DNA of 64,000 nt from Chryseobacterium sp. Leaf394 (GTDB lineage: Bacteria > Bacteroidota > Bacteroidia > Flavobacteriales > Weeksellaceae). A program made the position numbers and the translations under genes. Under the pieces are notes generated by a model. The model was not told the DNA's origin. It saw only the letters and a list, made by a program, of their open reading frames with translations, and did no database searches. The stretch's first letter is position 1, and each line of letters starts with the position of its first letter. Location: NCBI RefSeq assembly GCF_001424105.1, contig NZ_LMQH01000011.1, forward strand, positions 1,294,273 through 1,358,272. The letters run 5' to 3'. Shown one piece after another: positions 8,509-13,102 of this stretch.

Positions 8509-8534
8509 AAAAACCTGCTTGTGGGCAGGTTTTT
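8509..8534 (+). terminator. Terminator of the CatA-like gene
   Basis: AAAAACCTGC and GCAGGTTTTT form a perfect 10-bp stem with loop TTGTGG. Confidence 0.85.
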
Positions 8535-8671
8535 AATTGGTATTGATCTCTCAAATTTCTTCTTTATTAATATATCATTGTAGAATCAATAATATTGCCA
8601 ATCGAATCGTTACGATAAATATTATCATGAGAGTAGTCGTCATTATTAACGCATATATGCTCGAAAATAAG

Positions 8672-9040
8672 TTAACCAACTGACTCTGGAATTACAGGTT
8701 GGTTATAGATGGGAATTTGAGAGCTTAATATTGCTTTTCCATTCCTTCCGTATTCTATCCAGTTTTTAATATTATAATTTTTTGATGAACAATCACAGTC
8801 CCATAACTGCAGATTCTGCTTGCCACCTACTGTAATAAACCTACCTTTTTTATCCTTTAATTTTTTTGTGAGATAAACCCATTTAATCCAAGCCGAGTTA
8901 CTGCTTTCACGACGAGAAGAAATCGTATAGTCTGCTGATTTATATATATCAATGAAATTATTTGGTACTGGTGTAAAAGCAAATAAGGCAAAACAAGTAA
9001 TAACTGTTGCCAAGATTAAAATTACTTTAAAATTTTTCAT
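8672..9040 (-). CDS. Small exported protein, unknown
   Basis: About 122 residues. The N-terminal signal (MKNFKVILILATVITCFALFAF) indicates export. The mature part has a CDC pair and the phrase WIKWVYLTKKLKDKKGR, but matches no family I know. The ATG at 9038-9040 is preferred to a TTG two codons upstream. It is the last of three leftward genes for small exported proteins; the start is 9 bases after the stop of the preceding gene, so co-expression is likely. Confidence 0.65.
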   Translation of the reverse strand: MKNFKVILILATVITCFALFAFTPVPNNFIDIYKSADYTISSRRESSNSAWIKWVYLTKKLKDKKGRFITVGGKQNLQLWDCDCSSKNYNIKNWIEYGRNGKAILSSQIPIYNQPVIPESVG

Positions 9041-9049
9041 GATCAAAAT

Positions 9050-9670
9050 TTATTTAAACCATTTGTTTAATCTTCTCTTTGTTCTGTCAAATGCTGTTTG
9101 CTCCCATATTACCTCAAATCCATTCCAAAAAACTCTTATTTGATTTCCAGAGTCACGATATAAAACAAATTTTATATCCTTGTGTTGAATATATACGTTA
9201 TTAACATTTGAAGATTCGGAAACATATTTAGAGTTGTTCTCTCGGACTTCTTCTAATCTTTGTAAAATAGATTGGGCTTCGTTTAAAGGCAGATACCTGA
9301 AGGCATATGCACTTCCTATATTACCGTCAGAATTTCTATTGTCGCCAAAAAACGCAAGTAAAAGACCTCTTTCATTTACCTCTGTACAATTAAAGGCAAC
9401 AGAAATTAACCCACCACTATCATCTGATGCCAGACTTTCTGTCTCAAATTTAATTTCACGATTATCAGCATTACCAATAATATTATTTATAATATATTCT
9501 TTCGACCGGAACTGCGAAATTTCTTTTGCAACTTCTTTTTTTACAGCATTTGCTGCCAAAAAAGTTATTGCGGTCGCAGCTGCAGCAGTTCCAACAGCTA
9601 CAGCAGTTCTATTTTGTGCATTTCCGTAAATGCTAAAAATAAGAAAACATGGAATTAGAATTTTTTTCAT
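9050..9670 (-). CDS. Exported protein, unknown
   Basis: 206 residues with a clean signal peptide (MKKILIPCFLIFSIYGNAQ). An Ala-rich hydrophobic stretch (about 24-42, AVAVGTAAAATAITFLAANA) could be a second membrane or glycine-zipper-like segment. The rest is mixed alpha/beta with no recognised motif. It is the middle gene of the three-gene unknown cluster. Confidence 0.65.
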   Translation of the reverse strand: MKKILIPCFLIFSIYGNAQNRTAVAVGTAAAATAITFLAANAVKKEVAKEISQFRSKEYIINNIIGNADNREIKFETESLASDDSGGLISVAFNCTEVNERGLLLAFFGDNRNSDGNIGSAYAFRYLPLNEAQSILQRLEEVRENNSKYVSESSNVNNVYIQHKDIKFVLYRDSGNQIRVFWNGFEVIWEQTAFDRTKRRLNKWFK

Positions 9671-9681
9671 GATGTAACCAA

Positions 9682-10101
9682 TTATTTAAAAATTTTATTG
9701 TACCACCCACTTACATCTTTTTTAATAAGCTCATGATATTCGTACAGCAATGATGCTAAGCTTGAATTAGCTCTCTGACTTTTATACGAATTTACTGTAA
9801 GATAACCATAAAAGTTCCCATTTTTATCTACTACAATTGGAGGATTTGAGGCATAATTATTCCATGGTGAGTATGAACTGTATTCGTTTCCATAAGTTCC
9901 ATAAGAATTCCAAATAGATTTTGTATTGTATGAGTTACCATATGTTCCGTAGTTATTCCATATAGAATTTTTATCGTAAGAATCACAATTTAAACAACCT
10001 AGATACTCATCATGACTTGACCCACCATATATGTGAAGCGTTTGAGCACTTAAGATTATCGAAAACAAGAGAAATGTAAGAAAGTGTAATTTATTTTGCA
10101 T
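9682..10101 (-). CDS. Exported protein with repeated WNxYGxYGNxY motif
   Basis: About 139 residues starting at the ATG at 10099-10101 with a signal peptide ending LSAQ. After GSSHDEYLGCLNCDSYD come three related units: SIWNNYGTYGNSYN, SIWNSYGTYGNEYS and SPWNNYASNPP, then PIVVDKNGNFYGYLTVN. I recall the same LGCLNC ... WNxYGxYGS ... NPPVIVD layout from hypothetical proteins of many bacteria, so the family is real but uncharacterised to my knowledge. The open frame continues 62 codons upstream, but a -7 box at 10123-10130 supports the short form. It heads the three-gene cluster. Confidence 0.72.
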   Translation of the reverse strand: MQNKLHFLTFLLFSIILSAQTLHIYGGSSHDEYLGCLNCDSYDKNSIWNNYGTYGNSYNTKSIWNSYGTYGNEYSSYSPWNNYASNPPIVVDKNGNFYGYLTVNSYKSQRANSSLASLLYEYHELIKKDVSGWYNKIFK

Positions 10102-10458
10102 TCTAGGATATTTTGTTTTTTGCAAAGATATAATGTGTCGATGTATAAAAATTACGGTTATCCTTAATTTCAAAAATAAATACAAATAACTTGAAAGTAT
10201 TCCGTATTTGTACTGAAATTTTACAGGCGTTATTTCAAAAATTATATTAGTTTCGACATTATCATTGAATAATAATTCATTACACAAAACTGGTTATCTG
10301 TAGAACATTCTCCCACCATCCTTCGAGAACTCTTCGGGTTTCCTTCGGAAAACACATACTTTTCCCGAACAACAACCGAACAAACCCCAAACAAAAGCCG
10401 AAGAAATATCCTTTTCAAAAACTATTTTTCATTAATTTCGTCAAAAATCAAAAAGATA
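10102..10458. other. Divergent intergenic region
   Basis: It holds the promoter of the YGxYGN gene. At 10318-10350 there is a GC-richer patch (CTTCGAGAACTCTTCGGG, then TTCCTTCGGAA) that looks like a small repeat element. No RNA gene is recognised. Nothing matches TAnnTTTG exactly before the S9 peptidase; TAATTTCG near 10,435 is closest. Confidence 0.45.
10123..10130 (-). promoter_or_regulatory. -7 promoter element (TATCTTTG) for the YGxYGN cluster
   Basis: An exact TAnnTTTG match 21 bases before the ATG at 10101; it also decides the start codon of that gene. Confidence 0.6.
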
Positions 10459-12986: not shown

Positions 12987-13033
12987 AAATTTTGATAAAA
13001 TACAAATAAATTCAAAACGGCTTTTAAAACAAA

Positions 13034-13073
13034 CTGCCCCTGAAAGATTAAACTTTCAGGGGCAGTGTTTTTT
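13034..13073. terminator. Strong 13-bp hairpin terminator
   Basis: CTGCCCCTGAAAG and CTTTCAGGGGCAG form a perfect stem with loop ATTAAA; TGTTTTTT follows on the plus strand. It lies between the two outer REP-like elements and about 170 bases after the S9 peptidase stop. Confidence 0.8.
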
Positions 13074-13102
13074 AAGATCGGTAAAAACATCTTACACTGA
13101 AC

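Follow-up and report, generated by a model that had tools for sequence, protein, structure and literature searches.

We read three adjacent leftward genes of Chryseobacterium sp. Leaf394, in the 64,000-nucleotide stretch of DNA analysed here (hereafter the window), as an AT-rich accessory cassette that was recently shared and occupies a variable chromosomal slot rather than as a conserved machine, with gene 1 encoding an extracytoplasmic binding module, and our confidence in this reading somewhat outweighs our doubt. A single transcript would then yield three independent exported proteins. The gene 1 product would carry two beta-hairpins bracketing three aromatic- and glycine-rich 16-residue loops and is predicted to bind a ligand of the cell surface or cell wall; gene 2 would encode a lineage-restricted exported protein, and gene 3 would derive from an Adhesin_E-like protein that is decaying or has been trimmed. 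Recent transfer, co-transcription, export, the binding function and the class of ligand are what we infer here from the observations laid out below.

Layout of the three-gene unit

The unit and the signals around it are arranged as follows.

10123-10130, minus strand: TAnnTTTG (-7) box, TATCTTTG, 21 bases upstream of the gene 1 ATG
9682-10101, minus strand: gene 1, 139 amino acids, exported-type, with the SIWNxYGxYGS repeat domain
9781-10041, minus strand: conserved domain of gene 1, residues 21-107 (from alignments A1 and A4 and AlphaFold2)
9050-9670, minus strand: gene 2, 206 amino acids, exported-type
8672-9040, minus strand: gene 3, 122 amino acids, truncated and distant Adhesin_E relative
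8567-8671, minus strand: frame past the in-frame stop of gene 3, 34 codons plus a stop, with resemblance to the longer relative kept
8509-8534, plus strand: terminator-like hairpin, separating gene 3 from a convergent acetyltransferase-like gene

The first-pass annotation had described three leftward genes with signal peptides, lying 9-11 bases apart under one -7 box, and the positions and gaps (11 bases between genes 1 and 2, 9 bases between genes 2 and 3) are borne out. Export-type N-termini are found on all three proteins; the same is true of 26 of the 61 non-overlapping open reading frames (ORFs) of the window under the hydropathy rule used, which is crude and catches membrane proteins too, so that three such genes in a row are unremarkable. 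The box is present, and C. piscicola has the same one upstream of gene 1 at about the same position, but it is weak evidence since TAnnTTTG occurs 99 times on both strands of the window against 80 ± 8 in shuffles, and by eye no -33 TTG is seen at the usual spacing. One terminator-like hairpin is observed where 0.8 are expected in shuffles. Co-transcription of the three genes is plausible. Downstream of the S9-peptidase-like flanking gene, positions 13017-13082 hold an inverted repeat with two adjacent 33-base arms (82% complementary), which may be a dispersed palindromic element. Here and below, the gene names topoisomerase, thioesterase, acetyltransferase, S9 peptidase and recombinase were assigned by eye from sequence.

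A unit, probably recently shared, in a variable slot

Among 148 genomes of the genus, gene 1 has matches in 49 (47 near full length; the partial matches in G002 and G070, of about 41-43 residues only, lie outside that count), gene 2 in three (G000, G067 and G010) and gene 3 in 18. The complete trio occurs in two of the 148 only, namely the window genome (G000; 4.3 Mb in 17 contigs) and G067, apparently the Chryseobacterium piscicola record. The gene 1 product of C. piscicola is 97% identical to that of the window; in the genome collection no other close record with gene 1 and a name was found.

The slot lies between the acetyltransferase-like gene, present in 131 of the 148 genomes, and an S9-peptidase-like gene. 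Both flanks were recovered in three of ten fetched stretches, and there the content differs, with the trio in G067, one ORF of 236 amino acids in G060 and three other ORFs in G088; the remaining seven have no peptidase gene within the stretch. The GC content of the trio genes (0.30-0.33) is below that of three flanking genes (0.41-0.42). Counting against a cassette by composition, the noncoding DNA flanking the trio is itself AT-rich (0.29-0.30 in the spacers on either side), and the window as a whole has a GC content of only 0.37.

Between the window and C. piscicola, dS is 0.21, 0.34 and 0.26 for genes 1-3 but reaches 0.91 and 1.09 in two genes of the flanks, a contrast that compositional bias and saturation in the flanks may exaggerate. 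Because the silent divergence of the trio is below that of the flanks, we infer that sharing of the unit postdates the divergence of the flanks. DNA identity in 100-base bins is 87-100% over the trio and 76-93% over the two flanking genes, so that the ranges overlap, with bins of 60, 90 and 98% just upstream of the trio; this comparison leaves out the stretch before about 7.8 kb, which did not align. The corresponding dN/dS values are 0.07 for gene 1, 0.05 for gene 2 and 0.30 for gene 3, values that suggest purifying selection on genes 1 and 2 between the carriers. On the C. piscicola side, the DNA downstream of the trio (L002, 7713-8416) is a tandem array of about 13.8 copies of a 51-base unit, or alternatively 4.6 copies of a 153-base unit.

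A tree of gene 1 (45 chosen rows, with several long branches) sets 28 genus copies on one side of a branch with 100/100 support, and the window and C. piscicola copies fall outside it as the closest relatives of that clade. Because these two copies are nearest to the genus clade, an old divergence with loss may also account for the pattern.

The repeat domain of gene 1

The conserved part of gene 1 spans about 85 residues and consists of a hairpin, three 16-residue SIWNxYGxYGSxYS repeats and a second hairpin. The repeat reported in the first-pass annotation is real: its units begin at S46, S62 and S78, and G35, N49, G55, S62, I63, N65, G71 and S78 are invariant across 14 aligned sequences, with S46 nearly so, the third unit being divergent past its first residues. 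With the repeats in register and a profile match, these sequences form one SIWNxYGxYGS family. The CxxC pair C36/C39 varies within it, since both positions are cysteine in 13 of 32 rows (which are not independent of one another), both are other residues in 17 and two rows are gapped.

AlphaFold2 predicts the structure of gene 1 with a mean pLDDT of 88.4, rising to 94-97 in ten-residue blocks over residues 21-110, and the five models span 78.4 to 88.4. A fold search with the model gave best E-values of 4.9 in the PDB and 1.5 in a viral library, with Z >= 2 for none of 34 chains, a negative that does not prove a new fold. Ig-like PDB matches (the best 60 of 254 distinct sequences at E <= 1 being listed) were judged to be chance, the best single-sequence match having an E-value of 1e-5 to one hybrid Ig chain and the best profile match 0.41. 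The domain is named in none of the four family libraries scanned (Pfam, NCBIfam, PADLOC and PHROG). All three proteins fall short of the curated cut-offs of Pfam and NCBIfam and lack a match at E <= 1 in the defence library PADLOC, the best PHROG value being that of gene 2 (E-value 0.0012), and no literature was found for the repeat strings of gene 1.

Our best guess is that gene 1 encodes a small, putative extracytoplasmic binding module. Binding to the surface or the cell wall seems its likeliest role because the aromatic, glycine-rich repeats are combined with export and with envelope-type domain fusions. A bolder version can be put forward only tentatively, in which gene 1 would be an unmodelled extracytoplasmic domain with a fold absent from solved structures, found in at least four phyla (on plasmids, on virus-assigned contigs, in variable slots) and acting in surface binding as a competitive trait that cells gain and lose.

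Distant relatives of gene 1 and their genomic contexts

The first-pass annotation placed the gene 1 motifs in hypothetical proteins of unconnected bacteria, and relatives, mostly annotated as hypothetical, are indeed found in distant taxa. The domain occurs in Bacteroidota, Pseudomonadota (Anaerobiospirillum, Cupriavidus, Robbsia, Microvirga and others), Bacillota (Paenibacillus) and Cyanobacteriota (Calothrix, Nostoc), and in a sample of the window's own phylum the gene 1 profile matches 8 of 395 genomes, two of them within the genus. It stands alone or forms the C-terminal part of longer proteins that also contain Bflower, DUF3298, Cu_amine_oxidN1 or RHS-like parts, the DUF3298 fusion having in addition a PdaC match below the cut-off. 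By eye, most of these fusions start with an export signal and two Bflower fusions have no evident one; the partners point at most to a location outside the cytoplasm, and no further.

Neighbourhoods were compared over 39 loci, which lie on virus-assigned contigs or in taxa beyond the genus (L137 yielded no family ORF), and the neighbours shared by distant loci are, by eye, mostly of phage, transposase, recombinase, regulator and toxin-antitoxin types. Close neighbours of other types are common to three pairs of loci, with a different gene in each: L063 and L064 (one genus), L054 and L086, and L057 and L138. The last pair comes from two Acinetobacter pittii plasmids, in which the gene 1 relative is divergent from the same small lipoprotein-like gene (89% identical; L057 3322-3678 and L138 861-1217). 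In L054 (3174-3635) and L086 (1935-2360) the ORF immediately before the Bflower fusion is related between the two loci and has about 141-153 residues, possibly a partner of that variant of the domain.

The mobile contexts raise the question of whether the cassette is cargo conferring a surface trait useful in competition or protection, with plasmids and prophages spreading the gene 1 domain to that end. Plasmid relatives number 13 of 72,556 records with the window protein as query and 16 with another family member, which alone recovers the Erythrobacter, Calothrix and Nostoc copies, and an export-type N-terminus was seen by eye in six of the seven plasmid relatives read. Further in its favour are 20 family loci among 77 pattern matches on virus-assigned contigs, some of them near recombinase-, repressor- or integrase-like genes by eye, and the differing content of the slot between genomes. 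Against this, three queries found the family in none of 50,697 phage records, the defence library matches none of the three window proteins, and at 27 of the 28 further genus loci read gene 1 has, within 1.5 kb, one or more of three recurrent chromosomal genes (topoisomerase-like, thioesterase-like and encoding a small membrane protein), L023 being the exception with none of them. We therefore regard spread as cargo as unlikely, and retain the accessory cassette with a binding module as the preferred reading.

Linkage of the three families

A second alternative is the one favoured in the first-pass annotation, in which the three proteins make up a small envelope complex or a secreted effector set. 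It draws on the tight gaps, the common orientation and the export-type N-termini, and also on the whole unit being common to two species with purifying selection apparent on genes 1 and 2. The families are, however, unlinked outside the two carriers. Among the 49 gene 1 genomes, gene 2 stands beside gene 1 only in G000 and G067; in G010 the two lie about 1.65 Mb apart. Relatives of genes 1 and 3 occur together in ten genus genomes including both carriers, and of the other eight, six have them on separate contigs and two at distances of 0.44 and 3.9 Mb. At the 28 other genus loci neither gene 2 nor gene 3 is within 1.5 kb of gene 1; these are part of the 45 genus loci with a near-full-length gene 1 that lie outside the carriers, the other 17 being judged from whole-genome positions. 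The gene 2 loci read, in other genera too, have varying neighbours, and only in the two carriers are gene 1 and gene 3 among them.

Gene 1 thus occurs without the other two in most genomes, and the distant gene 1 loci have no common partner, contrary to the conserved partnership that had been proposed. The linkage in independent genomes that would mark a three-gene system was not found, as both carriers have the same flanking genes, and gene 3 is truncated in one of them. With the trio known from just two carriers and a single site, it might still be a young true complex within this lineage, and overall we consider a complex or effector set improbable. The lead of a conserved three-part envelope system falls away, and what remains is a compact repeat domain in four phyla.

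Genes 2 and 3

Both genes had been described as matching nothing, which holds for gene 2 and fails for gene 3. Gene 2 has no Pfam match over the cut-off, none in PADLOC and no convincing PDB match. Within the bacterial family its matches come from 8 of 197 genomes, among them one copy with an internal stop and G629 (E-value 8.2e-4), a weak match in a very long frame and probably due to chance. Its profile retrieved no relative among 41 pattern matches in virus-assigned contigs, and none was found in the plasmid records. The structure prediction, from a two-row alignment, reaches a pLDDT of 46.0. Three candidate matches were judged to be chance: bindosome BasA (E-value 0.0059), a PHROG family without known function (E-value 0.0012, over the alanine-rich residues 14-91 of 206) and gp41 chains (best E-value 6.2e-4, by profile).

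Two of the gene 2 loci are described here as read by eye. In L069 (2141-2533), from another genus, a different small exported-type protein follows the gene 2 relative after 13 bases and is itself followed by a restriction-modification-methylase-like gene. In L070 (1768-2067) the relative has an in-frame stop and lies near a topoisomerase-like gene, the type that neighbours gene 1 in much of the genus.

Gene 3 ends after codon 122, and its C. piscicola counterpart has 157 residues; the frame beyond the stop still resembles this longer protein. In an alignment of 14 members, 12 match Adhesin_E (PF16747) at E <= 1, with a best E-value of 3.2e-10, and the window protein itself has no match, falling short of the curated cut-off of 23.7 bits. 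Six relatives were scanned singly, of which two pass (L040 at 32.9 and L044 at 36.2 bits), three are below the cut-off and one has no match; L039 and L046 reach 21.8 and 22.2 bits and the C. piscicola copy 18.9. Judged from these comparisons, gene 3 is a truncated, distant Adhesin_E relative and no member by cut-off. Matches to Ig_RSC4 (E-value 0.0099) and to a leucine-rich repeat chain (E-value 0.0053, by profile) were judged to be chance. The truncation and the dN/dS of gene 3, together with the internal stop in one gene 2 relative, would fit decaying passengers without present function, but the frames of genes 1 and 2 are intact and their dN/dS values low between the carriers, and we find this reading very improbable.

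Comparison with known protein families

Adhesin_E is the family of surface-adhesin protein E, and Haemophilus protein E is an adhesin; adhesion or host-protein binding is attributed here to that protein only. The Adhesin_E relatives of gene 3 have a C-terminal block that ends in a cysteine in all 13 aligned sequences, whereas the window protein has lost both the block and the cysteine to the in-frame stop, and it offers an example of truncation masking a known family.

For gene 1 the nearest named comparison is Bflower (PF21784, the 4-fold beta flower protein), to which the domain is fused in Aquabacterium and, judged from resemblance alone, in L086. Short 'dGxxxGyl' hairpins are seen by eye in both. 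For gene 1 itself PF21784 gives no match at E <= 1, short of the curated cut-off of 25 bits, and a profile comparison (probability 1.3%, over 13 columns) led us to reject their identity. Judged by titles and abstract openings, the literature found on Bflower is unrelated, and a CATH paper is what was found on 'beta flower'.

Plasmid proteins annotated as hypothetical in Acinetobacter, Cupriavidus, Paenibacillus, Nostoc and others carry SIxNxYGxYGS repeats and have the same domain as gene 1. In searches that start from gene 1 the matched stretches are 39-63% identical; the neighbours and partner domains of these proteins differ. Given that the domain is unnamed in the libraries scanned and matches no solved structure in the searches made, one structure of it together with a ligand screen would help to place many such hypothetical exported proteins.
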